In this document: one piece after another, positions 21,186 through 55,220 of the stretch
Layout: the number at the start of each line of letters is the position of its first letter
Position numbering within the stretch: position 1 is the first letter of the stretch
Assembly: GCA_016284045.1 (NCBI GenBank)
Contig: JAEEOB010000058.1
Location: 1 to 64,000 of the forward strand
DNA: 64,000 nt
Source of the DNA: Bacteroidaceae bacterium
GTDB lineage: Bacteria > Bacteroidota > Bacteroidia > Bacteroidales > Bacteroidaceae
Reading direction: 5' to 3'
Notes under the pieces: generated by a model
Told to the model about the DNA's origin: nothing
Databases searched by the model: none
Seen by the model: the letters and a program-made list of their open reading frames with translations, nothing else
Program-made: the position numbers and the translations under genes

Positions 21186-22037
21186 ATGATGACCGATTCT
21201 TTAAGATTGGAATTGCAACGAAGGCTTGCTCACCTTTTAGGTGAAGGGGAGGCGAGGGCTATCACGTTGCTCTTGTTTGAGCATATTGGCGGACTTTCCA
21301 CCGTGGATGTGCTGACGGGCAGAGATGCGGAGCTCCCTGAAGAGACGAAAGAGAAACTGAGGGCTGCCGCACGGAGAGTGGAGCAGGGGGAACCGGTGCA
21401 GTATGTCATCGGGAAGACTGTATTCATGGGTCTGGAACTCAAAGTTAGCCCTGCGGTGCTGATTCCCCGTCCCGAGACAGAAGACCTCGTCAGGCTGCTC
21501 ATCAGCGAGAACAAAGGACTGAATGATGGCAAAGTGCTCGATATTGGGACAGGCAGCGGATGTATCGCGCTCGCTGTCAAACATCAGATGCCTGATACAA
21601 GGGTGACAGCTTGGGACGTGTCGGAGAAAGCGCTTGAAGTGGCACACCATAATGCTTTGAAAAATGGTCTGGATGTGAAATTCCAGCTGAAAGACATCCT
21701 TTTGCCACAGCAGTCAGCAGACCACTTTGATATTATTGTAAGTAATCCCCCATATGTCTGCACAAGTGAAGAGGCTGAGATGGAGCGGCAGGTGCTCGAC
21801 TTTGAGCCGCATACCGCACTTTTCGTCCCTGACGACGACCCGCTCCGCTTCTACAGGGCCATCACCCTGTTTGCACGCCAACACCTCAACTCAGACGGAA
21901 AAATCTATTTCGAGACAAACCGCGCATATGCTGATGATGTGGCTGAACTGCTGAAAACCAATGGCTTTATCAAAGTGCAGGTGGTCAACGACCAGTTCGA
22001 CAACCAGCGGATAGTCAGAGGAGTGATTAGCTTATAG
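21186..22037 (+). CDS. prmC: Peptide chain release factor N(5)-glutamine methyltransferase
   Basis: VLIPRPETEDLV, LDIGTGSGCIALA, IIVSNPPYV. Confidence 0.93.
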   Translation: MMTDSLRLELQRRLAHLLGEGEARAITLLLFEHIGGLSTVDVLTGRDAELPEETKEKLRAAARRVEQGEPVQYVIGKTVFMGLELKVSPAVLIPRPETEDLVRLLISENKGLNDGKVLDIGTGSGCIALAVKHQMPDTRVTAWDVSEKALEVAHHNALKNGLDVKFQLKDILLPQQSADHFDIIVSNPPYVCTSEEAEMERQVLDFEPHTALFVPDDDPLRFYRAITLFARQHLNSDGKIYFETNRAYADDVAELLKTNGFIKVQVVNDQFDNQRIVRGVISL

Positions 22038-22076
22038 TTATTTCTTAATCAAATCTCATTTGCAAAACTATCGTCC

Positions 22077-22116
22077 ACGAGTTGCAGACTCGTTAACTCC
22101 CAATTTAACTCCTTTT
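22077..22116. repeat. Intergenic hairpin repeat, copy B
   Basis: ACGAGT-tgcag-ACTCGT followed by TAACTCCCAATTTAACTCCTTTTT; compare copy A at 15224-15268. Confidence 0.6.
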
Positions 22117-22123
22117 TAAATAA

Positions 22124-22609
22124 ATGGAACTTAAGCAAAAAGTGATGAGCGAAAAAGAGGCGTTATCACGTCTTGCGGCTCTCTGTGCACGTGCGGAATA
22201 CTGTCTGAGCGACATCCGCCATAAAATGAAGGCATGGCTGTTGCCAGAAGGGGCTGATGATCGTATTATCCGACGGCTCACCTCTGATGGTTATGTGAAT
22301 GAGAACCGCTATGCCCACGCATTTGTGAGAAGCAAGTTCCGTTTCAACCGCTGGGGGCGTGACAAAATCGCACGCGCGCTGAAGATGAAAGGTATCAGCG
22401 ACGAGGACATTGCCGACGGACTGACTGAGCTCAACGACGACGAGGCTGAACGGACTCTCATGGACCTGCTCATTGCCAAAAACCGGCAGATCACCTACAA
22501 AAATGATTACGACCGCTGTATGAAACTTCTCCGTTTCGCTGTCGGCAGAGGCTTTTCCATCGATGCAGCACGACGCTGCATCGAAAAAATGGATATAAAT
22601 GAAGAATGA
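22124..22609 (+). CDS. recX: RecX-family regulatory protein
   Basis: ARAEYCLSDIRHKMKAW, DGYVNENRYAHAFVRSKFRFNRWGRDKIARALK. Confidence 0.85.
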   Translation: MELKQKVMSEKEALSRLAALCARAEYCLSDIRHKMKAWLLPEGADDRIIRRLTSDGYVNENRYAHAFVRSKFRFNRWGRDKIARALKMKGISDEDIADGLTELNDDEAERTLMDLLIAKNRQITYKNDYDRCMKLLRFAVGRGFSIDAARRCIEKMDINEE

Positions 22610-22807
22610 AAATCATCAGTAAACTTATCATTTACCAAAGTAAATACACTTTTCACTTCGTTGAATCTTTTTCACGGCTCGGCAAATACTGAACAAGTTC
22701 ATCTTTGCTCTCGCTGCTCCAAGAATACACTTTTCACTCAGAAATAATTCTATAAATTCCTGTAATTCCTGTAAAAAAAAACTGAATTAAAATATATTCC
22801 TGTTTCT

Positions 22808-23884
22808 ATGAAAATCCGAGATATCGACTTAGGAAATAAACCTGTCCTGCTTGCTCCCATGGAGGATGTCACAGACTTGGCTTTCCGTCTCCTATGTAAG
22901 GAGTTCGGTGCATCCATGGTCTATTCCGAGTTTGTCAGTGCTGATGCACTGATTCGCTCCGTGAACCGTAGCCTGCAGAAAATCGTGGTTCAGGATGCTG
23001 AACGGCCCGTAGCCGTACAGATTTATGGACGTGATGTCGATTCCATGGTGGAGGCGGCGAAAATCATAGAGAACGAGTCGAAGCCAGATGTCATCGATAT
23101 CAATTTCGGCTGTCCGGTGAAGAAAGTGGCAGGAAAAGGTGCCGGGGCTGGTATGCTTCGTAATGTCCCGCTTATGCTCGATATCACGAGAGCTGTAGTG
23201 AAGGCGGTCAATACACCAGTCACCGTGAAGACTCGTCTGGGATGGGATCACGAGAGTAAAATTATCGTGGATCTGGCTGAGCAGCTGCAGGACTGCGGAA
23301 TCGCTGCAATCACCATCCACGGACGGACCCGCAGCCAGATGTACACGGGTGAGGCTGACTGGAGCTATATCGGATCAGTCAGAGCCAATCCCCGGATGCA
23401 TATCCCGATTATCGGCAACGGTGACATCGACTCACCCGAGAAAGCTGCAGAGGCTTTTGAGAGATACGGAGTGGATGCCGTGATGGTGGGAAGGGCTTCG
23501 TTCGGAAGGCCTTGGATATTCAAGGAAATCAGGGAGTATCTCGACCAGGGACGTGTCACCACTGACATGACTACGGAATGGAAGATGAACGTGCTACGAC
23601 GGCAGGTGCACGACAGCGTGGAGTGTTCGCTCAGCCGAACAGATAACCCTCGTAAAGCCACTGAGTTGGGAGGTATCATGCATGTTCGCCGCCATCTTGC
23701 CAACTCACCCCTGTTTAAAGGAATTCACGACTTCCGCAAGACTCGCATCAAAATCCTCCGTGCTGAGAGCATGGAAGAGTTGTTCCAGCTATTGAAAGAG
23801 GCAGAGACTATCATCAATAAATTTGGAACACCAATAGCTGATGAAATAAGTCCAGAAGACCCTAAATCGTTAAAAATTAATTAA
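22808..23884 (+). CDS. dusB: tRNA-dihydrouridine synthase
   Basis: APMEDVTDLAFR, INFGCPVKKVAGKGAGAGML, VKTRLGWD, ITIHGRTRSQMYTG, GRASFGRPWIF. Confidence 0.95.
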   Translation: MKIRDIDLGNKPVLLAPMEDVTDLAFRLLCKEFGASMVYSEFVSADALIRSVNRSLQKIVVQDAERPVAVQIYGRDVDSMVEAAKIIENESKPDVIDINFGCPVKKVAGKGAGAGMLRNVPLMLDITRAVVKAVNTPVTVKTRLGWDHESKIIVDLAEQLQDCGIAAITIHGRTRSQMYTGEADWSYIGSVRANPRMHIPIIGNGDIDSPEKAAEAFERYGVDAVMVGRASFGRPWIFKEIREYLDQGRVTTDMTTEWKMNVLRRQVHDSVECSLSRTDNPRKATELGGIMHVRRHLANSPLFKGIHDFRKTRIKILRAESMEELFQLLKEAETIINKFGTPIADEISPEDPKSLKIN

Positions 23885-24071
23885 AAAATAGCTGTTTCGG
23901 CAAATTCTTCATTCTTCGTTCTTCATTCTTCATTTATTTTTACTAACTTTGCAGGTTGGTAATCGAAAATAAAAGAAATAGTTAGCAAAAAGTGACAGAT
24001 TCAAGAAGCAACTTTTTTCAAGACTAACATCTTGTCTTCTTGTCTTCTTGTCTTTATTAAAGAATTAAATA

Positions 24072-24680
24072 ATGGATAAATTAAGTTATGCGCTGGGTCT
24101 GGGAATCGGACAACAGCTCAAACAGATGGGGCTGAAAGACGCCTTAGTCATGGAGGACTTTGCACAAAGCATCGTAGATGTGTTGCAGGATAACGAACTT
24201 AAAGTGAAAAACTCAGAGGCACAGCAGATTGTCAATGCTTTCTTCGCAGAGCAGGAGAAGCAGATGAAGGCTCAGCAGGCAGAGAAAGGAAAGAAAGCTC
24301 TTGAAGAGGGTAGAGTGTTCCTGCAGAACAATGCAGGACGTCCTGGTGTCATCACCACAAAGAGCGGGCTTCAGTATGAGGTGCTGGTGGAAGGTAACGG
24401 CAAAAAGCCGAAAGCCACCGACCAGGTGCGTTGCCATTATGAGGGAACGCTTATCGACGGCACCGTGTTCGACTCATCCTACAAGCGTAACGAGCCGGCT
24501 GTTTTTGGACTTAACCAGGTGATTGCAGGATGGACTGAGGGTGTCCAGCTCATGTCGGAAGGAGCTAAATACCGTTTCTACATACCTTATCTTCTTGCAT
24601 ACGGAGAAAGTGGAGCGGGTGGCATGATTCCGCCATACGCAACCCTCATCTTCGATGTTGAGCTGATTGAGGTACTCTGA
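24072..24680 (+). CDS. FKBP-type peptidyl-prolyl cis-trans isomerase
   Basis: Mip/FkpA-type N-terminus and canonical FKBP domain (VRCHYEGTLIDGTVFDSSYKR, VIAGWTEGVQLM). Confidence 0.93.
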   Translation: MDKLSYALGLGIGQQLKQMGLKDALVMEDFAQSIVDVLQDNELKVKNSEAQQIVNAFFAEQEKQMKAQQAEKGKKALEEGRVFLQNNAGRPGVITTKSGLQYEVLVEGNGKKPKATDQVRCHYEGTLIDGTVFDSSYKRNEPAVFGLNQVIAGWTEGVQLMSEGAKYRFYIPYLLAYGESGAGGMIPPYATLIFDVELIEVL

Positions 24681-24724
24681 TTATTCCGATTATTAATCTC
24701 AACTCTAAATAAAAAAATTAAACA

Positions 24725-25678
24725 ATGAAAAAAATGATGTTTTTTGCGGTTGCTATGGCAGCCGTGATGGTAACTTCCTGCAATAAGGGAGGAAGCAACG
24801 GTAAAGGTGATGATGATAAGTTGGCTCCTGTAGTGAAGGATGCCGGCATCGATTCGCTGGCGTATAACTTGGGTCTGGCACAGTCAGGCGGTCTGAAACA
24901 GTATATGATGTTCCAGCTTGGTGTTGACTCTGCTTATATTGATGACTTCATCAAGGGTATGAAAGAAGGTGCTGAGGCAACAGGTAAGGCAGCAGCAGCT
25001 TACAACCGCGGACTTCAGGTGGGTGAGCAGGTTCAGGGCATCGCCAAGGGGCTTACTATGGAGGTGTTTGGTGAGGATTCCACTCAGCGTATAGGAACCG
25101 AGCAGATTGTTGCCGGACTAATTGAAGGTCTGAAAATGGCTGATGGCGAGGCTAAAGAGAATGCGCTGAAAGCTGCCAACGATTTGGTTACTGAGCGTAC
25201 ACAGAAACTGCGCGACGAAAACCTATCAAAGAAATATGGAGAATGGAAAAAGCAGAACGAGGAATTCATCGCAAAGAAGAAGAAGGACAGTGAGTATAAA
25301 GCCCTTCCTAACGGCGTGCTTTATAAGGTGATTGAGCCGGGGGCAGGAAGTGCCATGAACGCTGATTCTGTCGTTACATGTGACTATAAGGGTGTGCTCA
25401 TCAACGACTCAACATTCGACTCATCTGAGGGAAAAGACCCGATTCAGGTGAACATGAAACGTCCGAGTGTGATTCCAGGATGGGTGGAAGTGCTCAAAAT
25501 CATGCCGATGGGTGCAAAATGGGAAGTGGTGATTCCTCAGGAGCAGGGTTACGGCTCACGAGAGATGGGACCTATCAAGCCGTTCTCCACACTGATTTTC
25601 ACCATCACAACTGTGAAAACTCCAGCTCCAAAGGCTTCTGGTTCCGCTCCAGCTCCTGTTACTATCCCTGCTCAGTAA
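24725..25678 (+). CDS. FKBP-type PPIase, lipoprotein, divergent
   Basis: Lipobox VTSCNK; FKBP fold segments (YKGVLINDSTFDSS, VIPGWVEVLKIMPMGAKWEVVIP) with divergent active-site loop. Confidence 0.88.
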   Translation: MKKMMFFAVAMAAVMVTSCNKGGSNGKGDDDKLAPVVKDAGIDSLAYNLGLAQSGGLKQYMMFQLGVDSAYIDDFIKGMKEGAEATGKAAAAYNRGLQVGEQVQGIAKGLTMEVFGEDSTQRIGTEQIVAGLIEGLKMADGEAKENALKAANDLVTERTQKLRDENLSKKYGEWKKQNEEFIAKKKKDSEYKALPNGVLYKVIEPGAGSAMNADSVVTCDYKGVLINDSTFDSSEGKDPIQVNMKRPSVIPGWVEVLKIMPMGAKWEVVIPQEQGYGSREMGPIKPFSTLIFTITTVKTPAPKASGSAPAPVTIPAQ

Positions 25679-28823: not shown

Positions 28824-31520
28824 ATGATACGACTGTTCAGATTTTTTAGTTTTTGTGTGCTCACGCTGTCTGCTTTCATCACCATGAAGGCACAGGAGCT
28901 ATATATCTGTGGCACAAAAGTGACCGCGGAAAACTGTAAGAACCTCACCGTCATCGACGGAGTCACCCTGACAAAACGTAACGGAGCGGCGATATTTGAC
29001 CCTAAGTCGAAAACGCTCGCGCTGAAGAATGTGGAGCTGGTGGACAAAAGCGGCAAAGCCATTCAGCATGATATCGAGGGACTGACTGTGAAAGTGTCAG
29101 AGACTGTGCTGGTGCAGTCAAACGTAACCGATGGCGTAGGAATCGTGCTGGACAATGTCACGATTATCGAAGGTGTCGGAACAGCCACACTGAATGTAAG
29201 CGGCAGTGCCTGCGGTCTGCTGCTCAATGCCGGAATGGGAGTCAGCAACCTGAACCTGAATGTGCGGAGCGGAAAGTTTGCCATTAGCGGAGGTTCCACC
29301 ACATCGGGTAAGGAACTAGTTAAACTCTACAAGGGAATACTCGCCGCAACAGGCGAAGAAACTGTCATTAAGGCGCTTGGCACTACCGGAAGCATTGTCA
29401 ACCTGCAGAGTCTGCGACTGAACGACGGACTCGCCATCACAGACCCTGCAGGCGCGGCATTCTCCAACCACGCCGTGTGTATTGGCAAGCTGCCAGTGAA
29501 AAACCAGATAGTGACGATTCAATATCAGGAGCAGCATTATCCTAAAGGTGATGTGAACCACGACGGCAAGGTGGATATCAGCGACGTGGTGGCTGTCATC
29601 AATACCATGGCGGGCGACACCACCTTCAAGGCCACATCCGACGTCAACGCCGACGGCGACACAAATATCAGTGATGTTGTCGCCATTATCAATATCATGG
29701 CAAACGGAGGTGAGGAGAATCCGGAACCAGAGCAGCCCGATGCGGCGGTTGTTGCCGGAATATGTCCCGACAACCACCACCCACATGCCATCGACATGGG
29801 CTATGGAGGCAGATGGGCATGCTGCAATGTGGGAGCTTCCGCACCATGGGAGACCGGCGGACAGTATGCATGGGGAGAAACTGAGCCAAAGGAAAAATAC
29901 GACTGGTCAACTTATATTCATTGTGACGGTGATTACTACAAATGTCATGATCTTGGCAGTGACATTTCCTACACAGACTATGATCCGGCTCATGTGAATT
30001 GGGGCAGCCTCTGGCGGATGCCTTCCGATGAACAGTTCATGCAGCTTTTCCAAAGCGGATGCCAGAAAGACTCCACTGTGCTGAATGGTGTGCCCGGCAT
30101 GACATACACTGCCACGAACGGAAACAGCATCTTCATTCCGTTTGCCACTGTCCGCTCGGATATAGAAGAGATTGAGGTTAAAACTGCCTATTGGACCTCT
30201 ATGCGCCATTCGTATATACCTAATGTGGCACGTGGGTTTTATGTTGACAGCTCTATGGGTACACCTATCCAGGGGTTTAATCGCTGCGTGGGCTGTATGG
30301 TACGTCCAATTCTTGATGAGAATATCGAGGACGAGAACATCGACCCGGCTGTGTTCTTCAACATCTGTCCCGACAAAAACCATCCTCACATCATCGACAT
30401 GGGAAAAGCAGGAAAATGGCTCTGCTGCAATCTCGGTGCCGCAAATCCTTGGGAATATGGTGATTACTATGCATGGGGCGAGACCGAACCCAAAGATAAA
30501 AGGCTTTACACATGGGCAGACTATAAGCTGTGTGACGGGACAAGGGATGGATGCGAATATGTTGGAAACGACATTGGAGATACCAGCTATGATGCCGCTC
30601 ATGCTGTGTTAGGATCGCCTTGGCGTTTGCCTGGATTTGAACAGTTTAATTTGCTTGGTGAGCATTGTGAGATGGAATGGTTTTCCATTAAAGGAATTTA
30701 CGGACAATTGTTTAAAGCTGAGAACGGCAACAGCATCTTCATGCCTGCCGCGGGCTACGGTTCGGAACATGGCGGAACGGAAAAATTGAACTCCGACTGC
30801 TTATACTGGACATCTCTGATGTCTCCAACTTTTCCTTTTGCGGCATATTATTTTAACACCGACGCGGGTTATTATAATTTATTGAGTCTGTCGCGTGTCA
30901 GCAGATTGCCAGTCAGGCCCATTGTCAAAGATACGACTTCAGATCCTGCAGTGACCGCCGGACTGTGCCCCGACAGCAACCACCCGCATGAAATCGATCT
31001 GGGAACGGGGAAGAAATGGGCATGCTGCAATGTGGGGGCAAGGACACCATGGGAATACGGCGGATTCTATGCATGGGGAGAGACTGACGTGAAGACGTAT
31101 TGGACTTATAACTGGGACACTTACTCTCTTTGCGACGGCACGCAGGAAGCTTGTCAGGCACTTGGCAACAATATCGCCGGAACTGGCTATGATGTGGCTC
31201 GAAAGGAATGGGGAGGCAGCTGGACTATGCCTTCTATGGCTGACTGTCAGGCTATTATCGATGACTGCACGTTCGAATGGTTAATTTTCAATGGGATTGA
31301 GGGTGCGAAAGTGACGGGAAAGAACGGAAACAGTATCTTCATACCGGGAGCAGGCTACCGCTGGGGGGCTTTGCCCCACTACCGTCAATGCGCCTATTGG
31401 TCAGCAGAGCAGTCAGCCGACTATGCGTACATGGCTAATCAGATGCTTTTGGATGATACGCAACACAAGGTGAATGAAGCCGCACGCTGTATCGGACTCT
31501 TAATCCGACCCGTCAAGTAA
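28824..31520 (+). CDS. Large secreted protein: N-terminal beta-rich region, dockerin-type-I-like pair and three FISUMP-like repeats
   Basis: GDVNHDGKVDISDVVAVINTMAGD ... SDVNADGDTNISDVVAIINIMANG; three copies of ICPDxxHPHxIDMGxxGxWxCCNxGAxxPWExGxxYAWGETxPK...WGxxWRMP. Confidence 0.8.
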   Translation: MIRLFRFFSFCVLTLSAFITMKAQELYICGTKVTAENCKNLTVIDGVTLTKRNGAAIFDPKSKTLALKNVELVDKSGKAIQHDIEGLTVKVSETVLVQSNVTDGVGIVLDNVTIIEGVGTATLNVSGSACGLLLNAGMGVSNLNLNVRSGKFAISGGSTTSGKELVKLYKGILAATGEETVIKALGTTGSIVNLQSLRLNDGLAITDPAGAAFSNHAVCIGKLPVKNQIVTIQYQEQHYPKGDVNHDGKVDISDVVAVINTMAGDTTFKATSDVNADGDTNISDVVAIINIMANGGEENPEPEQPDAAVVAGICPDNHHPHAIDMGYGGRWACCNVGASAPWETGGQYAWGETEPKEKYDWSTYIHCDGDYYKCHDLGSDISYTDYDPAHVNWGSLWRMPSDEQFMQLFQSGCQKDSTVLNGVPGMTYTATNGNSIFIPFATVRSDIEEIEVKTAYWTSMRHSYIPNVARGFYVDSSMGTPIQGFNRCVGCMVRPILDENIEDENIDPAVFFNICPDKNHPHIIDMGKAGKWLCCNLGAANPWEYGDYYAWGETEPKDKRLYTWADYKLCDGTRDGCEYVGNDIGDTSYDAAHAVLGSPWRLPGFEQFNLLGEHCEMEWFSIKGIYGQLFKAENGNSIFMPAAGYGSEHGGTEKLNSDCLYWTSLMSPTFPFAAYYFNTDAGYYNLLSLSRVSRLPVRPIVKDTTSDPAVTAGLCPDSNHPHEIDLGTGKKWACCNVGARTPWEYGGFYAWGETDVKTYWTYNWDTYSLCDGTQEACQALGNNIAGTGYDVARKEWGGSWTMPSMADCQAIIDDCTFEWLIFNGIEGAKVTGKNGNSIFIPGAGYRWGALPHYRQCAYWSAEQSADYAYMANQMLLDDTQHKVNEAARCIGLLIRPVK

Positions 31521-45408: not shown

Positions 45409-45777
45409 ATGAATTTCACTCCAGTAAGTAAAGAGGCTTTTGCTATTTTGGCGGCATGTTCCAGAAGCCGTGAATATTTCGGCATTGCGGTCGATCCGGT
45501 CGGAAAGAGGCAGTTCAAGCTCGTTTGGTCGTTTAAGATGACTAAGGACCAGGCTATCAGAGAAGGAACCGACAAACGTAATGTCCAGGGACAGATAATA
45601 ATCGACCAAAACTTCAATTTTTGTCCTTATTGTGGAGGAAAAATGTTTGCTCAATGTGGAAATTGTGGACACTTCATCTGCTACAATAACGAAACAAACC
45701 AGTGTCCTATCTGTCATATCAGAATTGGAGGCTTCCAGGAAGCATCCGACTTCTCGTTCGGGGGAGGAGGTTTCTAA
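45409..45777 (+). CDS. Stand-alone TerY-C-type zinc-ribbon protein
   Basis: FGIAVDPVGKRQFKLVWSFKMTKDQAIREG...NFNFCPYCGGKMFAQCGNCGHFICYNNETNQCPICH: eight Cys in ribbon-like pairs. Confidence 0.8.
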   Translation: MNFTPVSKEAFAILAACSRSREYFGIAVDPVGKRQFKLVWSFKMTKDQAIREGTDKRNVQGQIIIDQNFNFCPYCGGKMFAQCGNCGHFICYNNETNQCPICHIRIGGFQEASDFSFGGGGF

Positions 45778-45839
45778 GTTCAGCACTTTTCTTTACTCGT
45801 TTTATTAAGAACCAACAACTAAAAAACCAACAACTAAAA

Positions 45840-47117
45840 ATGGATTTAAAGAAAGGACAAATCGTACACCTCACTACTGGTGGAATGACTTGCACGGTAA
45901 TCGAAGAATTAGGCCGTGGAGGTCAGGGAACTGTTTATAAAGTAGATCTTGGAGGAAAGAAGATGGCACTTAAGTGGTATCATATCCCTCCTGAAGACAA
46001 ATTCTATAAGAATCTTCAAAAGAACGTCGATGCAGGAGCACCATCGGATGCTTTTATTTGGCCAGAGTTTCTCACAGTTAAGGAAAACGGAAGCTATGGA
46101 TATGTCATGAAGCTCAGGCCATCAGGGTATTATGAGTTCGGACAGTATCTGCTTGCACGCCATCAGATGAAGTCACTTTCTGCAATCTTTGCTGCAGCGA
46201 TGAAGATATGCAACGGATTTAAACTCCTACACAGATTTGGTTACAGCTACCAGGACCTCAACGACGGAAACTTCTTTATCAGGCCTGATGACGGAGATGT
46301 GCTTATCTGCGACAACGACAATGTCTATCCACAGGGGGAGAAGTCGGGAATCATGGGGAAAGCACGCTATATGGCGCCTGAGATTGTGGCGGGAGGTATT
46401 CCCGACAAGTTCAGCGACAGGTATTCACTGACTGTTCTCCTGTTTATGCTCATATATCTCAACCATCCACTTGAGGGGGCAAGAGTAGCAGCATGTCCTT
46501 GTATGACAGAGAACAACGAGAAAAAATTCTACGGAAGCGAGGCTCTTTTCATCTACGACAAAGATAATAATACAAACCTGCCTGTGAGAGGTGTACACAC
46601 AAATGTCATAAGAAGATGGCCTGCCTTTCCACAGCTGCTTCGCGACACGTTTATGGAGCAGCTTAGTCAGGAGAAGCTCAAGAACCCTTCAACAAGACTC
46701 ATAGAACAGGAATGGGAAAAAGTGATTGCCAAGGTCAGAGACACACTTGTGGTGTGTCCTAAATGTAGGCGTGAGACTTTTGTCGATCCAAATCAGAACA
46801 CGGGAAAATGCATAGAGTGTGGAGCGCAGTTTGATATCACTAGAAGGCTTGTCATGGGAGACCGGTCGATGGTGCTCACTTCTGGAACCAATCTCTTTAT
46901 TGATATGGACAACTTGCCCGACATCAAGATTCAGATCAGCTCCACGGGGGAGATGATGCTACAGAATGTGTCAACAAACAGCTGGAGTGTGGAAACGCCT
47001 AGTGGAAAAATAAGAGTTGTTAATGTCAACGACTGCCTACCGGCTCGTCCAGGGCTGAAAATCTCTTTCGGTTCCAGCATTGAGGGAGCTCAAAATGCCA
47101 AAGCTGAGTTAAAGTAG
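45840..47117 (+). CDS. Ser/Thr protein kinase-like protein with C-terminal zinc ribbon and beta domain
   Basis: Gly-loop ELGRGGQGTVYKV, MALKWY lysine, YQDLNDGNFF (catalytic loop), CDNDN (DFG position), ARYMAPEIVAGG; CPKC...CIEC ribbon. ATG at 45840 (MDLKKGQ) preferred over the ORF-track start at 45702. Confidence 0.88.
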   Translation: MDLKKGQIVHLTTGGMTCTVIEELGRGGQGTVYKVDLGGKKMALKWYHIPPEDKFYKNLQKNVDAGAPSDAFIWPEFLTVKENGSYGYVMKLRPSGYYEFGQYLLARHQMKSLSAIFAAAMKICNGFKLLHRFGYSYQDLNDGNFFIRPDDGDVLICDNDNVYPQGEKSGIMGKARYMAPEIVAGGIPDKFSDRYSLTVLLFMLIYLNHPLEGARVAACPCMTENNEKKFYGSEALFIYDKDNNTNLPVRGVHTNVIRRWPAFPQLLRDTFMEQLSQEKLKNPSTRLIEQEWEKVIAKVRDTLVVCPKCRRETFVDPNQNTGKCIECGAQFDITRRLVMGDRSMVLTSGTNLFIDMDNLPDIKIQISSTGEMMLQNVSTNSWSVETPSGKIRVVNVNDCLPARPGLKISFGSSIEGAQNAKAELK

Positions 47118-47167
47118 TTGAATAAATATAAAATTTTAATTATGTATTTTAAATAAAATATAACATT

Positions 47168-47902
47168 ATGAGTTTAATTGATGTAGAAAGCGTTCCACGC
47201 AGAACGATGACACTGTTCTTCCTGGCTGATACCTCGGGAAGTATGGAAGGCAATAAAATTGGAGCTTTAAATGATGCTATCTCGAATATTATTCCGATGA
47301 TCAGCGAGATATCAAACACCAATCCAGATGCCGAAATAAAAGTGGCTGCACTAGAATTCTCAAGCGGCACAACTTGGTTATACGACGAGCCAAAGAATGC
47401 AGAAGATTTCATTTGGCAGGATCAGAAGGCTAGCGGACTTACATCACTTGGAGAAGCTTGTATCCAGTTAGAGAAAGTACTACATAGAGATGGATTCATG
47501 AAGTCACCAAGCGGATCATACGCTCCTGCCATAATACTTCTTTCTGATGGAGGAGCTACTGACGACTTCGACAAAGGTATTGAGAAACTGAAGCAGAACA
47601 ACTGGTTTAAGGCGGCTATCAAGATTGCCATCGCTATCGGAGACGATGCCGACAAAGATGAGCTGAAAAAATTCACCGGAAATCTGGAAGCTGTCATTGA
47701 GGTTCATAATATCGAGGCGCTCAAGCAGATTATCAGAATTGTGGCGGTCACTTCCTCACAGATTGGAAGTAAGAGCACGTCGGCAACTGACTCTACAAAG
47801 CAGGAACAGGTGATTGATGAAATCAACCAGCAGATCGATAATGTTGATGGAGCAAATTCTGCTGCCGACCCTTCGAATGCTAGCGATGACTATTGGGATT
47901 AA
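47168..47902 (+). CDS. TerY-like vWA domain protein
   Basis: MIDAS FLADTSGSMEGNKIGALNDAI, SGLTSLGEA, ILLSDGGATDDF. Confidence 0.88.
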   Translation: MSLIDVESVPRRTMTLFFLADTSGSMEGNKIGALNDAISNIIPMISEISNTNPDAEIKVAALEFSSGTTWLYDEPKNAEDFIWQDQKASGLTSLGEACIQLEKVLHRDGFMKSPSGSYAPAIILLSDGGATDDFDKGIEKLKQNNWFKAAIKIAIAIGDDADKDELKKFTGNLEAVIEVHNIEALKQIIRIVAVTSSQIGSKSTSATDSTKQEQVIDEINQQIDNVDGANSAADPSNASDDYWD

Positions 47903-47921
47903 GCCTTTTCTTAGTCTTTTG

Positions 47922-47981
47922 TTCTTAGTCTTTAGTTTTTAGTTATTGTGCTCATAATACCTGAAAACTAAAGACTAAGAA
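47922..47981. repeat. 18-bp inverted repeat in the low-complexity intergenic region between vWA and PP2C genes
   Basis: TTCTTAGTCTTTAGTTTT ... AAAACTAAAGACTAAGAA. Confidence 0.75.
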
Positions 47982-48086
47982 CTATGTCCTCCATTTTGTG
48001 TTTTTTTATGAAGAAATACAACACCAATTTGTGGAATAAACTACTGATTATAATTATTAATTCTTAATTCTTCATTATCAATTAAT

Positions 48087-49466
48087 ATGACTGCTTGTTT
48101 AGATGTTCATTGTCTTGGAGAGAGCCACAAGGACTCGGGAAAGCCATGCCAGGACTACTCGTTTAGTTGTGTAGATGATGACATGGCCATTGCCATCGTA
48201 TGCGACGGACATGGCGGCGAAAGATATTTCCGGAGTGATGTGGGGGCCCAGGCTGCAACAGAAATCATTGTTGAGGTGGTTCGGTTGTTTGTGCAACAAG
48301 CCGATTCTAAGCTGTTCAAGGGCTCTCCATACACAGCCGAAGGCGTGGTCACAGAGTCCGAAAAGAAGCTTACACCATTGGATGTGAAGTTCAGGCAGAT
48401 GTTCTCTTCCATCATCACTAAATGGAACGAACGGATTGAGCTCCACGCTAAGGAGCATCCATTGACTGAATGGGAGATTGAGCATGTACCAGAGAAATAC
48501 AGGAATGAGTTTCTGGAAAATCTCGAATGTCCTCCTGAATCTTCAACGCTCAACAAGCAGTATGGATGCACACTCATGGCCTATGTCCAGACTGAGGATT
48601 ATTGGTTTGCGTTTCATCTCGGAGATGGAAAGTGTATCTCTTTCCATAAGGACATCAATTTCCACGGACTACAACAAGTGTGGGATGAGCCAATTCCATG
48701 GGATGAACGTTGTTTTCTTAATAAAACCACATCTATCTGTGATTCTGACGCTATCAACGAGTTCAGATATTGCTACGGCAACAACACGGAGACTCCAGTG
48801 GCAGTATTCCTTGGATCAGATGGTATTGACGACACCTATGGAGAGATGGAAAACATCGCAAACTTCTATGTGGAAATACTCAAAATTGTGGCAAAGGACG
48901 GTATTTCAGCGGCAGAACAGCAGCTACGTGACGATCTGCCAATCGTATCCAGAATAGGAAGCAAGGACGATGCATCCGTGGCGGCTATTTTCAACGTCTT
49001 TGCGGTGAAGTCAAATATTGGACATTTCATCCACTTTCAGATGGACTATATGGGGATGCAGGCCCAGGAGCAGGCAAACCGCATCAAGATGCTTCAGCAG
49101 AAGCAACAACAGCTGAAAGAGCAGATGTCCAATTGGAATGCCGACTTAAATAAAGCGAGTATTGAACTGAACTATGCCATGAAAGATTTGCGTAAAGCAT
49201 CCGACCGTCTGGAAATCCTAAGTGGTAAGATATCATTTCTCGCCAAGGAGCATCAGTCGTTCACAGGAAGCGACATGGAGTCTCCAATCGACTATAGTGA
49301 AATCATTGAGCAGGCGAAGGAAACACTTAATTCTAAGATGATTCAAGAAGAGGCAGAGCAGGAATCAGAAACAGTGAATACTGAGGAAGTGACAGACAAT
49401 CAGCAGATGGTTTCATCTTCTGAAGATGAGTTGGCAGGAACGGAAGAAACGAAAATAACATGCTAG
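48087..49466 (+). CDS. PP2C family phosphatase with C-terminal coiled-coil and acidic tail
   Basis: IAIVCDGHGGERYF, GCTLMAYV, FHLGDGKCISF, FLGSDGIDDTYG, SKDDASVA; then Q/K/E-rich heptad-like region. Confidence 0.88.
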   Translation: MTACLDVHCLGESHKDSGKPCQDYSFSCVDDDMAIAIVCDGHGGERYFRSDVGAQAATEIIVEVVRLFVQQADSKLFKGSPYTAEGVVTESEKKLTPLDVKFRQMFSSIITKWNERIELHAKEHPLTEWEIEHVPEKYRNEFLENLECPPESSTLNKQYGCTLMAYVQTEDYWFAFHLGDGKCISFHKDINFHGLQQVWDEPIPWDERCFLNKTTSICDSDAINEFRYCYGNNTETPVAVFLGSDGIDDTYGEMENIANFYVEILKIVAKDGISAAEQQLRDDLPIVSRIGSKDDASVAAIFNVFAVKSNIGHFIHFQMDYMGMQAQEQANRIKMLQQKQQQLKEQMSNWNADLNKASIELNYAMKDLRKASDRLEILSGKISFLAKEHQSFTGSDMESPIDYSEIIEQAKETLNSKMIQEEAEQESETVNTEEVTDNQQMVSSSEDELAGTEETKITC

Positions 49467-49557
49467 ATTTCGTAGTGGAATGTTTTACATATCTCATTCA
49501 TTAACAACTGGAAACTATTATTTTGTCTGAAAACTTGCTAAAACCGCTGATTTACCT

Positions 49558-49565
49558 TAACTTTG
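49558..49565 (+). promoter_or_regulatory. -7 element upstream of the LytTR gene
   Basis: TAACTTTG 21 bp before the ATG at 49586. Confidence 0.45.
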
Positions 49566-49585
49566 CATTTTAAGAATTTGAAAAG

Positions 49586-49951
49586 ATGGAAAAATGGATT
49601 TTTTTTCAAAATCGTGACGAATTATTGCGGGTGAATCTCCACAAGGTAGTTTATTTTGAGGCGGATGCTAACTACACAAACATTTACACCGTCAACAATA
49701 TGAAAATCGTTGTGGGGATGAACCTCGGAAACACACAGCAGATGATAAGCAGGCAGGCACCCGACAACATGCCGGTGTTTATGCGTATAGGTAAGAAATA
49801 CATTGTCAACACGTGTTTCATTTGCCAGATACACATCGCTAAACAAAAACTCGTTCTCTCTGATTTTGAGAGATTCGCATTCACTCTGCCAGCTTCCAAG
49901 GAGGCTCTCAAAACAGTCAAAGAAATGTGCATACAGAATCCTCCTCGTTAA
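49586..49951 (+). CDS. Stand-alone LytTR DNA-binding domain protein
   Basis: LLRVNLHKVVYFEADANYTNIYTVNNMKIVVGMNLGNTQQMI...FMRIGKKYIVNTCFICQI. Confidence 0.8.
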   Translation: MEKWIFFQNRDELLRVNLHKVVYFEADANYTNIYTVNNMKIVVGMNLGNTQQMISRQAPDNMPVFMRIGKKYIVNTCFICQIHIAKQKLVLSDFERFAFTLPASKEALKTVKEMCIQNPPR

Positions 49952-50029
49952 ATCACTTTTCCAATAGAATATAAATTCCATTAAAGAATTAAATCAATAA
50001 TTTGAAAAAAAATAACTTCCTTTAATAAA

Positions 50030-50728
50030 ATGCAGGTATTTCTGATTGGACGTAAGGCTCCTGATAATTTGCTCGAAATATCCACAAACGGAAAGTCTGT
50101 GACTCAGGGACCGGTTCCACAATCGGTCAGCAGAGAACATTGCAAGATTGTGCGCAACGACGATGGAACGGCCTTGATTACAAACCTCAACGACAAAAAC
50201 GCCACTTTTGTGAACGGGATAAGAGTAATCAGCAAAATCATCACCTCAGATGATGTCGTGGAACTCGGAGGAAGTCACTACAGGCTCGACACATCGTTTC
50301 TCAAGCTTGTGAAATCTGTTAATATTGAGCATCTCGAGAAGATTTGGAATGACTATGAGCAATGGGAGGAGAAGCAAAAAATCGCTGTGCAAAGGTCAAA
50401 CGCACTCAAGGGCATCACAGGATTATTCTCTATGTTTGCTATTATCATCTCCTTCACCGATTTCGGTATGGACATCAACACCGTAAAGACCTTGAGAATC
50501 GTGCTCTACACAATTGCCATTATCTCCGTGGCATGGACCATCATTTACACTTTTTTCAGCGCACCAAGAAAAATCAGAGAGGTTAAGGAAAAGGAACAGC
50601 AGTTCTTCGACGACTATGTCTGTCCCGCATGCAAGAAGCCATTGGGAAAGTCTTTCCGCTATGAGCGGCTCGTGAAGTTGGGAGAGTGTCCTCTTTGTAA
50701 GGCTAAGTTCAAAACTAATCATTTCTGA
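50030..50728 (+). CDS. FHA domain protein with TM segments and C-terminal zinc ribbon
   Basis: IGRKAPDN, QSVSREHCKIV, NATFVNGIRV (FHA); two hydrophobic segments; CPACKKPLG...CPLCKAKF. Confidence 0.88.
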   Translation: MQVFLIGRKAPDNLLEISTNGKSVTQGPVPQSVSREHCKIVRNDDGTALITNLNDKNATFVNGIRVISKIITSDDVVELGGSHYRLDTSFLKLVKSVNIEHLEKIWNDYEQWEEKQKIAVQRSNALKGITGLFSMFAIIISFTDFGMDINTVKTLRIVLYTIAIISVAWTIIYTFFSAPRKIREVKEKEQQFFDDYVCPACKKPLGKSFRYERLVKLGECPLCKAKFKTNHF

Positions 50729-50794
50729 GGATAAACAAAAATTCCACCACTTCATACATTAAACCCACTATTTCGTGGAATCAGCATTCTTTTT

Positions 50795-50826
50795 TTTGGT
50801 GGTAAATACAAAAGGTCATAACTTTG
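50795..50826 (+). promoter_or_regulatory. Bacteroidota promoter (TTTG-N20-TAACTTTG)
   Basis: TTTG 50795-50798, TAACTTTG 50819-50826, upstream of the ATG at 50866. Confidence 0.65.
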
Positions 50827-50865
50827 CACCAGAAATCAGTTATTAACATCAAAAAATGGAAAATT

Positions 50866-52089
50866 ATGATTACGAATGAAAACGGAAAAACCATGATGGA
50901 TTACGAAGGCTTCAATGCCCATGACATGAATGTGGAAAACGATTCCATGGTGCAGGAAGAGGTGACCATCCTTCAGTCAAAAGGTACTCCATGGAAGGAG
51001 CTGTCGATAGGAGGTACGTTCGGACTGCTGCTTGCAGGAGGAGGTATTTATGCATCAGGACTCGGAAAAGGAGAAGATGAGGATGCACTCCTTGCAGGAG
51101 CACAGGCCAGCGACAGCGTGCGTGTGGGGAATGGAAACGGGGAGAACCAGGTGCAGAGTGCTAACGATGATCCCGTTATGCTTGATGAAGATGGAAATCC
51201 CATTATTCCAGTCTCACGACAGCAGGCACAGGAAAGAATCGACGAGGTGGTAAACGAAGTGGCTAACTCTGCTGCGGCAGCTCATGGACACACCGCTTAT
51301 CACACACATGTTCCACGGCAGCAACACGATGATGCAGGGCAGATAGCTGCAGACACCAACTCGCCACACATCACCATTAATGTGTATCAGAATGGACATG
51401 AGACGGCAGAAGACAATATGGCTTTTGATCCAGGGGTGCATCAAGTAAATATCACAACTGTTGATGACAGCCTTTCATTTGCTGAAGCTTGGAATATGGC
51501 AAGAGAACAGCTCGGACCGGGACAGGCATTCGTCTGGAGAGATGGAGTATATGGCACTTTCAGCAAGTATGAATGGGATGCCCTTAATTCTGCTGAACAG
51601 CATGAGTTCACTGCTGTGGCAGTTCGCGAATATCAGCAGATAGAGGCTTCTGAGCTTTATGCACATAATCATCAGGATGTGCATTTTATAGAAGGAGAAC
51701 ATGTTTTCACTGACAACGTGATTACTGTCACAGCTGACGACTATGCAGGCAACAACGATGAGGTGTCGATGATTGACGACGATGGCGATGATGCTGTGCA
51801 GATTATTGAGAGTGCTGGACAGGAGATTGAAAGTTTGCCGGAAATCATTACACTCGACAACACGCTTGATGGCATTGAGCAGATTGAGTCTTTGCTTGAG
51901 AACGACGGCGACGGAGTGCTGGCAACTGACGACATTCTCGGAACTGTGGCGACCCTTATTAACGATAACGACAACTTGGCACAGGGTATGGAGATGGTTG
52001 ACGGATTGTTTAGCAATTACGAATCAAACGACGCTGAAGCCGATATGCCAGACTATGTGTCTGATGCCGATACGCTTGGACTTGTGTAG
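50866..52089 (+). CDS. Uncharacterised acidic protein with one glycine-rich TM segment
   Basis: ELSIGGTFGLLLAGGGIYASGLG then a long Asp/Glu-rich region; no family recognised. The ORF-track start at 50824 is a TTG inside the promoter; ATG at 50866 (MITNENGK) preferred. Confidence 0.7.
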   Translation: MITNENGKTMMDYEGFNAHDMNVENDSMVQEEVTILQSKGTPWKELSIGGTFGLLLAGGGIYASGLGKGEDEDALLAGAQASDSVRVGNGNGENQVQSANDDPVMLDEDGNPIIPVSRQQAQERIDEVVNEVANSAAAAHGHTAYHTHVPRQQHDDAGQIAADTNSPHITINVYQNGHETAEDNMAFDPGVHQVNITTVDDSLSFAEAWNMAREQLGPGQAFVWRDGVYGTFSKYEWDALNSAEQHEFTAVAVREYQQIEASELYAHNHQDVHFIEGEHVFTDNVITVTADDYAGNNDEVSMIDDDGDDAVQIIESAGQEIESLPEIITLDNTLDGIEQIESLLENDGDGVLATDDILGTVATLINDNDNLAQGMEMVDGLFSNYESNDAEADMPDYVSDADTLGLV

Positions 52090-52255
52090 TCTTTAGTTGA
52101 GACTTGTCATGGGTATTGCTCAAAGAGCCATCTGACTGAGTTCTGAATTATCGGAATACTAATATCCAGATGAAATACCAAAATTACCCATAACCATATA
52201 TACGTAAGACAGTCCAACCAAAAGGTCACAAAAACGTATAACCCTAAAACTGTAA

Positions 52256-52975
52256 ATGACGATAAGTAAACGATTGTTTCACATAGTATTGTTCTTAGCG
52301 TGTGCCACTGTGGCATGCGCTAAGAACTATGTGGTGTGTGTGGGACTCAGCGACTATCCAGGATACGCAAATGACCTTACGGTATCTGCTAACGACGCGG
52401 TATATATTGCCAACCTCTTCAAACGAAACGGAGGAGCGGAGGTCTATTGCCTCACAAACCATCAGGCCACAGTCTCAAATGTCAAGGCAACTATGAGACA
52501 GGTTTACTCAAGGGCATCTGTACATGACACCGTCATTCTTTTTTTCAGTGGTCATGGATTTAATGGGGCGTTCAGATGCTACGATGGGCAGCTACAATAT
52601 AGTGCCGTCACCGAATGTATGAAATTAAGTGATGCGAGAAAAAGGCTCGTCTTTGCAGATGCGTGTATGTCGGGAGGTATGAGAACTAACAACAGGAGGA
52701 TTAGTGGAAGAGAAAACGGAATCAGCCTCATGTTCTTCCTGTCTTCAAGGACCGCGGAGCCATCTAGGGAGGTTTTCGGACTTGAGAACAGTGCCTTCAC
52801 CTATTTCCTTGGTAAAGGACTCAAGGGATTTGCAGATAAGAATCAGGACCGCACTATCAGCGCGAGAGAACTGTTCGATTATGTCAGCTCTAATGTAATT
52901 AAACTCACTTACCGCAGGCAACATCCGGTGATGTGGGGAAATTTTAATGACAGTATGACAATTATTCGTTGGTAA
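52256..52975 (+). CDS. Caspase-like (C14, metacaspase-type) peptidase with signal peptide
   Basis: MTISKRLFHIVLFLACATVACAKNYVVCVGLSDYPG; catalytic His VILFFSGHGFNG; catalytic Cys RLVFADACMSGG. Confidence 0.9.
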   Translation: MTISKRLFHIVLFLACATVACAKNYVVCVGLSDYPGYANDLTVSANDAVYIANLFKRNGGAEVYCLTNHQATVSNVKATMRQVYSRASVHDTVILFFSGHGFNGAFRCYDGQLQYSAVTECMKLSDARKRLVFADACMSGGMRTNNRRISGRENGISLMFFLSSRTAEPSREVFGLENSAFTYFLGKGLKGFADKNQDRTISARELFDYVSSNVIKLTYRRQHPVMWGNFNDSMTIIRW

Positions 52976-53080
52976 ATCCGTTTCTTTAATATTAGGAAGC
53001 GAGTAGGGACTTTTTACTGTATGTCAGAAAACTATCTGCATGGTTTCTCAAAAAACTAAAAACTAAGAACAAAAAAAAAT

Positions 53081-53626
53081 ATGAGTAATATTTTATCTGA
53101 GAAAATAATTGAATGTACTGGTTGCGGACAAAAGATGAAAGTCCCTAACAGTGCACTTGTCGTTGCAAAGAAAGTGAAGTGTCCAAAGTGTGGGACATCG
53201 TTAATGGTCACCTTTATCGACAGTATGACAGATAACAACGACAAAACAACTGAAGATGGGAATGATAGCCAGACTGTATATGGAGGTGGACTAAATTCGA
53301 ATAACGCAACTGCATGGCTCGAATTTGAGGGAATGAAGTATTACATCGAAAAACCGGTCAGCGTCATTGGACGAAGGGCGGGTACTTCTACTGCCGATAT
53401 TCAAATCGACACACCTGATATGTATATGGGACGCCATCATGCAATCATTACGATGAAGACGGACTTTTCTAAAAACACAGTTTATACACTCAAACGAAAA
53501 GACGCAAAAAACGGACTAAGTGTCAACAATATACCTGTGGGTGAACAGGAGGAGACTGTTCTCCTTTCTGGGGCTGAAATCAGGATGGGACACACAATTG
53601 TCGTTTTCAAAGTTAGTGAGGATTAA
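53081..53626 (+). CDS. Zinc-ribbon + FHA domain protein
   Basis: IECTGCGQKMKVPNSALVVAKKVKCPKCGTSL; SVIGRRAGTSTADIQIDTPDMYMGRHHAIIT, NGLSVNNIPVGE. Confidence 0.85.
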   Translation: MSNILSEKIIECTGCGQKMKVPNSALVVAKKVKCPKCGTSLMVTFIDSMTDNNDKTTEDGNDSQTVYGGGLNSNNATAWLEFEGMKYYIEKPVSVIGRRAGTSTADIQIDTPDMYMGRHHAIITMKTDFSKNTVYTLKRKDAKNGLSVNNIPVGEQEETVLLSGAEIRMGHTIVVFKVSED

Positions 53627-53688
53627 AGAATACTTTTCACAGTTTAAACTTAGCAGGGCTTTTACCGCCCATTTAACCATCGTTTCTT

Positions 53689-55122
53689 ATGAAAGTATCA
53701 TTAGCACAGCCACAGTTCATCTACGAGCTGGGAAAACGGAATAATCAGGAAGATACCATCTATCCGTCTTCTGAAAATGCTACTGCCGAAGACCGGCTGT
53801 TCATCGTATGTGACGGGATGGGAGGACATGAACATGGAGAACGTGCCAGCAGAATTGTCTGCGAATCATTCGCAAAATATGTCAATCAGCATGTCGATGA
53901 CAACACTGTCTTCAATGATGATATGTTCAACGAGGCACTTGAATTGGCATATCAGGAATTGGATAATGCGGACGACAACACTGTTAGCAAGAAAATGGGC
54001 ACAACACTCACTTTCATTCTCTTCCACAAGGGGGGATGCTTCATGGCACATATCGGAGACAGCAGAATCTATCATGTCAGACCATCAGAGAAGAGGTTTC
54101 TATATATGTCACGCGATCATTCACTCGTCTTCGAACTATTTAGAAGCGGAGAAATCAGTTATGAGGAGATGAAGACGCATCCCAAGAAAAACATCATCAC
54201 AAGGGCGATGATGCCGGGAGAGGAGAACAGGCTGTCTGCTGAGACTGTCAACACCACTGACATACAGCCAGGAGATTATTTCTACCTCTGCTCAGACGGA
54301 ATGCTGGAACGGACTGAGGAGTCTGATATCATGGGAATTCTGGCAAGCGACAACACCGACACGGCAAAGCAGCAACGCCTCATTTCAACGGCTCTTGACA
54401 ACAAGGACAATCATTCTGCATATATCATAAGGATAGAGGAGGTGCAAACTGAGGCGGGAGACAGCGAGATACGAAATGATGAGGCTAATTCCAGAAGTAA
54501 TGTGGTGAACTACATACCGGAAATCAATAAGCAGGCGGTTACAAAAGTGGCTGAGGGAGATTTTGTGTCTGATGAACCGGTCAAAGAGAAGGCGAAGAAG
54601 AAATTTCCATGGGTCAAAATCATGCTTGTGCTAATTGCAGCAGCGGTATATACCCTCTTCTACTACATTCCTAAGCAAAGAGACATGAATGTGTCAAATT
54701 GGGAGAAAAACCAAGAGAAGAGCACCATTAAGGATACCCTCACTAATTACAACAATCCAGATGAGAGGGTTTATGGCGAAGAGAAGCGTGATTCTGCCAA
54801 TAATTCATCCATATCAAAGGATGGAAGCGGACAATCCGACAAAAAAAGCAAGAAAAGCAATACAGACTGGCAGTCAAACAGAAAGAAAAACGACAAAAGT
54901 TCTAACAGCCAGCCACAAAACAAGCAGAAACAGAAAACAGAACCAAAAACACAGCCAAAGACAGAAAACCAGTCTGGCGGAAACCAAGGAGGAGGGAACC
55001 ATTCACCAGAAAAACCTGCAACAAATCCCACTCCCACAACAACTCCAACTCCAGCAGCTCAGCCAACTCCAACACCGGCAGCGCCACCAACCAATGGCGG
55101 TATCGACTCAGCGTTCGAATAA
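53689..55122 (+). CDS. Membrane-anchored PP2C phosphatase with low-complexity C-terminal tail
   Basis: FIVCDGMGGHEHGERAS, GTTLTFILF, AHIGDSRIYHVR, LCSDGMLERT; TM FPWVKIMLVLIAAAVYTLFYYI; then K/N/Q- and P/T-rich tail. Confidence 0.9.
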   Translation: MKVSLAQPQFIYELGKRNNQEDTIYPSSENATAEDRLFIVCDGMGGHEHGERASRIVCESFAKYVNQHVDDNTVFNDDMFNEALELAYQELDNADDNTVSKKMGTTLTFILFHKGGCFMAHIGDSRIYHVRPSEKRFLYMSRDHSLVFELFRSGEISYEEMKTHPKKNIITRAMMPGEENRLSAETVNTTDIQPGDYFYLCSDGMLERTEESDIMGILASDNTDTAKQQRLISTALDNKDNHSAYIIRIEEVQTEAGDSEIRNDEANSRSNVVNYIPEINKQAVTKVAEGDFVSDEPVKEKAKKKFPWVKIMLVLIAAAVYTLFYYIPKQRDMNVSNWEKNQEKSTIKDTLTNYNNPDERVYGEEKRDSANNSSISKDGSGQSDKKSKKSNTDWQSNRKKNDKSSNSQPQNKQKQKTEPKTQPKTENQSGGNQGGGNHSPEKPATNPTPTTTPTPAAQPTPTPAAPPTNGGIDSAFE

Positions 55123-55186: not shown

Positions 55187-55220
55187 GGCAAACGGCTCCA
55201 AACCGTTTGCCAATTTTTTG
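55187..55220 (+). terminator. Terminator at the 3' end of the signalling island
   Basis: GGCAAACGG-ctccaaa-CCGTTTGCC followed by AATTTTTTG. Confidence 0.75.

Follow-up and report, generated by a model that had tools for sequence, protein, structure and literature searches.

A probable pair of separable Ser/Thr-phosphorylation modules upstream of metK in a Bacteroidaceae bacterium

The TerY-P triad has been described in Anantharaman 2012 (as cited in PMC4978471 and PMC11090510), and its antiphage activity in Gao 2020 (as cited in PMC11090510). TerY-P was shown to give phage resistance in P. aeruginosa, and one of its variants was missed by detection tools (PMC10889362). It has also been reported from a Helicobacter genomic island (PMC4978471). 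TerY-P with a zinc-ribbon kinase is frequent in Type II/III-A CoCoNuTs, and triads are viewed as stand-alone defensive cassettes (PMC11090510). The locus considered here consists of ten genes (g1-g10) upstream of metK in a Bacteroidaceae bacterium. It lies in the first 64,000 nucleotides of contig JAEEOB010000058.1 (assembly GCA_016284045.1), referred to as the window; the source is a Bacteroidota metagenome-assembled genome that is 79% complete and has uncultured Prevotellaceae/Bacteroidaceae as relatives. We consider it likely that the locus is made of two separable Ser/Thr-phosphorylation modules that happen to adjoin, each with its own proposed mechanism. Module A (g1-g4) comprises a TerY-P triad and a TerY-C protein and belongs to the known antiphage type. 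Module B (g5-g10) is apparently an undescribed Bacteroidaceae operon that is common in related gut bacteria. No description of it was found in the literature searched, and "undescribed" is provisional because Anantharaman 2012 and Gao 2020 were outside that search. Module B brings Hanks-type kinases and PP2C together with FHA readers and an exported caspase in a single conserved set of genes. Cultivable relatives in Prevotella or Bacteroides would thereby offer a test of regulated proteolysis at the bacterial envelope.

Both modules share features with described systems. As in the TerY-P of Type II/III-A CoCoNuTs (PMC11090510), the vWA protein, PP2C phosphatase and zinc-ribbon kinase of module A are encoded by adjacent genes, and TerY-C is an extra recurrent partner. 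Unlike the CoCoNuT triads, module A is adjoined by no CoCoNuT, restriction or helicase genes, and the McrB GTPase and McrC nuclease of Type II/III-A CoCoNuTs are not among the window's ten genes (Pfam). A kinase with a zinc ribbon and a beta-rich domain, beside PP2C and a stand-alone vWA protein, is also a theme of GAP1-N2 conflict systems (PMC7159879), but that theme was described for actinobacteria with GAP1-N2 GTPases, none of which was found among the ten genes. Module B recalls the Stp1/PrkC-type kinase-PP2C pairs in that g10 resembles Stp1/IreP phosphatases (174.8 bits against a Stp1/IreP-like model, below the equivalog cut-off of 230) and Hanks-type kinases with additional domains at the C-terminus are encoded in module B loci elsewhere. 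It departs from these pairs in the transmembrane segment (TM) and tail of g10 and in its further genes, which encode LytTR, a zipper-acidic protein, the exported caspase and two FHA-zinc-ribbon proteins. The caspase, g8, shares its domain and His/Cys motifs with conflict-system caspases (Peptidase_C14; EACC1-associated), but it is stand-alone and exported, not fused to sensor or effector-associated domains, and scores 59 bits against the EACC1 model (cut-off 140).

The inventory of the locus largely bears out the initial annotation, which had been made from the sequence without database searches. The ORF list of the window contains its ten successive open reading frames on the + strand, and the terminator it placed after g10 is a terminator-like hairpin with a T-run (Table 1). 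Nine of the ten families it named lie above the Pfam gathering cut-off (TerY_C, Pkinase, VWA, PP2C_2, LytTR and FHA for g1-g6; Peptidase_C14, FHA and PP2C_2 for g8-g10), and g7 has no Pfam family. The starts of g2 and g7 were corrected to 45840 and 50866 on the basis of homologues and the conserved promoter; the longer forms in the ORF list begin at upstream GTG/TTG codons. In comparisons with the sister species G003, G009 and G012, all ten genes are under purifying selection (pN/pS 0.07-0.47), and synonymous differences per site are near saturation (0.70-0.97). The genes are thus real and maintained.

The two modules are very probably separable. The triad kinase g2 is present in 4 of the 13 genomes of the genus, 11/301 of the family and 12/393 of the order; six of these twelve, the window's own genome included, carry close homologues. 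Caspase g8 orthologues are found in 32 of the 301 family genomes, and the carriers of g2 and g8 overlap in four genomes only, all of them from the window's genus. Outside the genus (288 genomes), g2 occurs in 7 and g8 in 28, with an overlap of 0 vs 0.7 expected; at this low power the zero is weak as a test of avoidance, and there is no sign of a link between A and B. Triad loci elsewhere carry g1-g4 without the g5-g10 set, and profiles found no TerY-C, vWA or triad PP2C at 31 other caspase-anchored loci.

Gene order within the genus is in keeping with this. Modules A and B of G009 occupy the same slot as in the window, with LicD-glycosyltransferase-YdcF to the left and metK-hemD to the right, and are about 15 kb apart. 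Between them (L066:4337-17610) lie an adaptor-WG protein, whose adaptor domain is described below, a YD/Rhs-like gene (read by eye; Pfam gives no match) and many small secreted genes. In G012 the modules are on separate contigs; the triad contig runs on into the same adaptor-WG protein as in G009, and the genes preceding module B have lengths that match those in the G009 spacer block. G003 has all ten genes contiguous in the window's order, LytTR included (DNA match). The other members of the genus have metK with neither module beside it. In metK identity the four carriers of A and B come closest to the window, so shared descent can explain why they have both. The adjacency itself has the look of a local event within one clade. 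One ten-gene island as a conserved unit was rejected on the lack of overlap outside the genus and the separation in G009, each half being conserved alone. A lack of conserved co-occurrence had been named alongside the initial annotation as grounds for refuting it, and for the ten genes as a unit this is what the survey found. The initial annotation had read the locus as a single expanded triad that had two phosphatases and two phospho-readers and a protease as its output. The caspase, the LytTR protein and the second FHA/PP2C set belong instead to module B.

Predicted promoters mark the same boundary. Bacteroidota-type elements (TTG-N20-TAACTTTG) precede g5 and g7, and the scan found none before g1-g4, while the upstream YdcF gene has one. 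The boundary of transcription therefore likely coincides with that of the modules, and g1-g10 are probably not one transcription unit. These promoters are consensus matches backed by conservation: the strict element occurs 9 times in the window vs 1.7 expected, and the -7 element before g7 is conserved in G003, G009 and G012.

Several observations weigh against this two-module reading. The ten genes are contiguous on one strand in two species (the window's and G003), and all four own-genus genomes with A also have B (Fisher p 0.02 family-wide, driven by that clade), so coupling of A and B within the clade is possible. None of these four genomes (the window's, G003, G009 and G012) has a kinase next to module B, and the triad's g2 is the only one nearby. 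Finally, the proposal of g7 as the caspase target (see below) draws only on co-occurrence and topology rules. A true ten-gene hybrid, in which g2 replaced module B's own kinase and the triad drives the FHA readers with the caspase as output, would account for the missing kinase in the four genomes (about three quarters of other B loci have one), for the contiguity in two species and for the absence from the window of the adaptor-domain protein that follows the triad PP2C in G009, G012 and G517, which leaves B directly downstream. We regard it as unlikely: G009, and probably G012, have the same kinase-less B away from A, the promoter elements set A apart from B, and seven other Pkinase genes in the genome could serve B in trans.

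Table 1. Features of the ten-gene locus and its predicted transcription signals (positions in the window)
Feature	Position	Strand	Evidence
g1, TerY-C zinc protein, module A	45409..45777	+	PF15616 TerY_C 30.3 bits, gathering 28.4
g2, Ser/Thr kinase, C-terminal zinc ribbon and beta-rich domain, module A	45840..47117	+	Pkinase 49.2 bits
g3, TerY-like vWA protein, module A	47168..47902	+	PF00092 36.1 bits; MIDAS DTSGS...T...D by eye
g4, triad PP2C phosphatase, coiled-coil and acidic C-terminus, module A	48087..49466	+	PP2C_2 106 bits
Bacteroidota-type promoter TTG-N20-TAACTTTG, 51 nt before g5 (predicted)	49535..49565	+	scan; same element in G009
g5, stand-alone LytTR DNA-binding protein, first gene of module B	49586..49951	+	PF04397 39.9 bits
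g6, FHA - two TM - zinc ribbon, module B	50030..50728	+	FHA 43 bits
Bacteroidota-type promoter TTG-N20-TAACTTTG, 70 nt before g7 (predicted)	50796..50826	+	scan; conserved in G009, G012
g7, basic head, Gly/Ala zipper, acidic Lys/Arg-poor tail, module B	50866..52089	+	no Pfam family
g8, exported caspase-like peptidase, module B	52256..52975	+	Peptidase_C14 60.2 bits
g9, zinc ribbon - FHA, module B	53081..53626	+	FHA 41.3 bits; CxxC pairs in sequence
g10, PP2C - TM - extended polar tail, module B	53689..55122	+	PP2C_2 57.3 bits; TM ~305-329
Terminator-like hairpin and T-run	55187..55211	+	intrinsic-terminator pattern

Module B was surveyed with profiles at the 31 other caspase-anchored loci. A zinc ribbon-FHA protein was found at 25 of them, FHA-TM and PP2C-B proteins at 23 each, the zipper protein at 23 (and at 3 more by composition) and LytTR at 13. 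One or more Hanks-type Ser/Thr kinases (STKs) were present at 23 loci (plus 1 by Pfam). The profile "c198_457WG" drifted onto kinases, and STKs were therefore counted by length and score with spot checks in Pfam, in which 11/11 were Pkinase. A second, diverged copy of module B lies in the window's own genome on contig C198, in the order LytTR, FHA-TM, caspase, zipper-acidic protein, FHA, PP2C, Sel1/TPR-S and Pkinase, and so has its own kinase. A kinase at locus L129 was considered as a triad kinase within a B locus and rejected as a generic Pkinase-FHA protein. A plasmid-borne module B was likewise rejected, with only two distant caspase matches on plasmids. Elsewhere in the window (28824-31520), a protein of 898 aa that includes a dockerin type I domain has a C-terminal part that resembles proteins near several B loci.

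The caspase called in the initial annotation is upheld by the Peptidase_C14 match and the His/Cys dyad motifs (FFSGHG, DACMS), and g8 is a putatively active caspase-like peptidase. It has 239 aa, with the C14 domain only and no fused toxin domain (Pfam), and no relative in the PDB by sequence. Its N-terminus is signal-peptide-like; nearly all orthologues start with such a segment, and by simple pattern matching the His and Cys motifs are mostly kept. The protein g7 had been called an acidic TM protein. Its acidic tail stands, but the hydrophobic stretch is a Gly/Ala-rich zipper (codons ~51001-51048) below the ordinary TM threshold. This plan is common to 33 proteins, the window's g7 included, and the family is recognisable by plan, not by sequence. 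The Gly and Ala fraction in the hydrophobic run is 0.51 in the g7 group vs 0.23 in control proteins. Four of 660 control proteins pass the g7 filter, and three of these occupy the place of g7 in B loci that the profile missed. Among the FHA proteins, g6 has hydrophobic segments at residues ~125-147 and 154-178, and the zinc-ribbon models for g9 fall below cut-off.

A mechanism for module B is put forward tentatively, at a probability a little short of even. The module would carry out envelope-spanning phospho-signalling, in whose usual form Hanks-type kinases and PP2C would set phosphorylation, and the membrane-anchored and soluble FHA proteins would read it. The LytTR protein probably controls expression. 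The exported caspase would act in the periplasm, possibly with g7 as its envelope-protein substrate. The positive-inside rule would place the g7 tail in the periplasm, the predicted site of the caspase, and g7 is the best candidate for a caspase target or membrane partner. In this genus the kinase for B may be one of the seven Pkinase genes other than g2, or g2 itself; since B lacks its usual adjacent kinase here, rewiring to the TerY kinase is possible. An extended form of this proposal can also be stated, in which B is an undescribed, widespread Bacteroidota system whose intracellular Ser/Thr phosphorylation controls an exported caspase targeting a glycine-zipper membrane protein, and in which the TerY triad replaces the missing kinase in this genus to give a phage-triggered envelope caspase response. 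We hold that to be very unlikely.

Another function for the exported caspase would be the release of secreted toxins, module B then being a polymorphic-toxin processing or export system and not a signalling one. Caspase-like peptidases are known to process bacterial polymorphic toxins (PMC3482391), and the YD/Rhs-like gene and small secreted genes between A and B in G009 would suit such a role. However, the window and G003 lack the Rhs-like block, most of the processing caspases are toxin fusions (PMC3482391) while g8 is stand-alone, and the constant partners of B are FHA, PP2C and STK. Only a slight probability is given to this function, and phospho-signalling is preferred for module B.

The TerY triad and TerY-C proposed in the initial annotation for g1-g4 are all in place by Pfam and motifs: a vWA protein with MIDAS, a zinc-ribbon kinase and an adjacent PP2C. 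The catalytic residues and CPxC...CxxC ribbon of g2 are conserved in 11 homologues. Its structure model is confident at residues ~300-410 (zinc ribbon and beta domain) and weak in the kinase C-lobe. Among the matches listed for the g2 model, Foldseek gave only kinases and hence no name for the C-terminal beta domain. Gene order around PP2C is kept in most triad loci, and g1 is syntenic with the triad in loci L025, L026, L030-L032, L039, L135, L169 and L193. The zinc-ribbon kinase and PP2C, acting in opposition, would most likely set the phosphorylation of defence partners, and the vWA and TerY-C proteins may serve as metal-dependent scaffolds, as family knowledge suggests. We infer a defence role in this genome from the phage resistance recorded for TerY-P and from the neighbours of related triads (see below). 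A PADLOC search, suggested alongside the initial annotation, was run with PADLOC-DB 2.0.0 and gave no TerY model match to the window; such a model is a detection tool and not a biological defining feature. The locus had also been judged uncoupled from tellurite systems. This holds for TerD, which has no match in the genome at its 79% completeness (TerB, TerC and TerE were not searched), and classical ter coupling was rejected on that basis.

A survey of Bacteroidales triads shows that they are interchangeable signalling cassettes beside very different defence effectors. They adjoin PglZ and BrxL (L031, L032, L193), a ZorB-like gene with a coiled-coil partner that is ZorA-like by eye only (L028), a TPR-CHAT protein (L042) or a 2302-aa DUF4011-helicase-MTES_1575 nuclease (L040). 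DpdF-like helicases are found at L032 and FtsK at L037, and the triad of the Prevotella plasmid pE2-28 has FGE, UvrD-exonuclease and FtsK genes as neighbours. At L031, L032 and L193, PglZ and BrxL are directly upstream of TerY-C, kinase, vWA and PP2C, which forms a BREX-like set plus triad with no recognised methyltransferase in view. Locus L042 (G246 contig C34) combines the triad with a pair that is ZorAB-like on its homology to L028, the TPR-CHAT protease gene and a divergent caspase gene with a signal-peptide-like start and a C-terminal hydrophobic segment. Triads in phages were rejected: there was one partial match in an unverified record, and the IMG/VR matches L193 and L194 are PglZ-BrxL loci that look bacterial.

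An N-terminal adaptor domain of ~100 aa is often shared by the proteins whose genes directly follow the triad PP2C. The domain is predicted to be all-helical (block-mean pLDDT of 77-87 for residues 1-100, from five sequences). It has no Pfam or PDB match, and Foldseek with the adaptor model gave none. As several triad-adjacent effectors share it, the domain is a candidate for the means by which one kinase set addresses many effectors. The window differs from the usual Bacteroidales triad loci in that module B, not adaptor-domain effectors, comes after module A. Two adaptor copies, unlinked to the triad, are encoded elsewhere in the genome, on C201 (adaptor-FGE) and C72 (adaptor-TM protein), and the adaptor as a triad-only feature was rejected on this ground. 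Could the window's triad act on these, with the UvrD-exonuclease that follows adaptor-FGE on C201, and be unrelated to B? Homologues of the C201 pair lie directly inside the pE2-28 triad operon (42% identity for adaptor-FGE, 57% for UvrD-exonuclease), and within the genus a close helicase is found in 3/4 triad genomes vs 0/9 others. Yet this pattern coincides with one clade and could be due to inheritance, the triad-less G478 and G537 carry a close helicase while the triad carrier G003 is without one, and adaptor domains also occur outside triad loci. Action on unlinked effectors is therefore possible but on the unlikely side; it would specify the output of module A and is compatible with the two-module explanation.

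Some further observations concern the adaptor domain and the C201 pair. Adaptor-domain genes are found at L026:14099, L028:9081, L034:13092, L040:3061-9969, L135:6221, L169:17476, L169:20321 and L169:24023, with WG repeats, FGE, FtsK or helicase-nuclease as fusion partners. The domain resembles effector-associated domains in role only. On contig C201 of the window's genome (G000), adaptor-FGE and then UvrD-exonuclease span 21783-25649 (L167:9772-13653), unlinked to the triad. A 277-aa fragment on G000 contig C27 (14163-14993) matches the C-terminal end of the C201 UvrD-exonuclease at 91% identity and reflects either a partial second copy or an assembly break.

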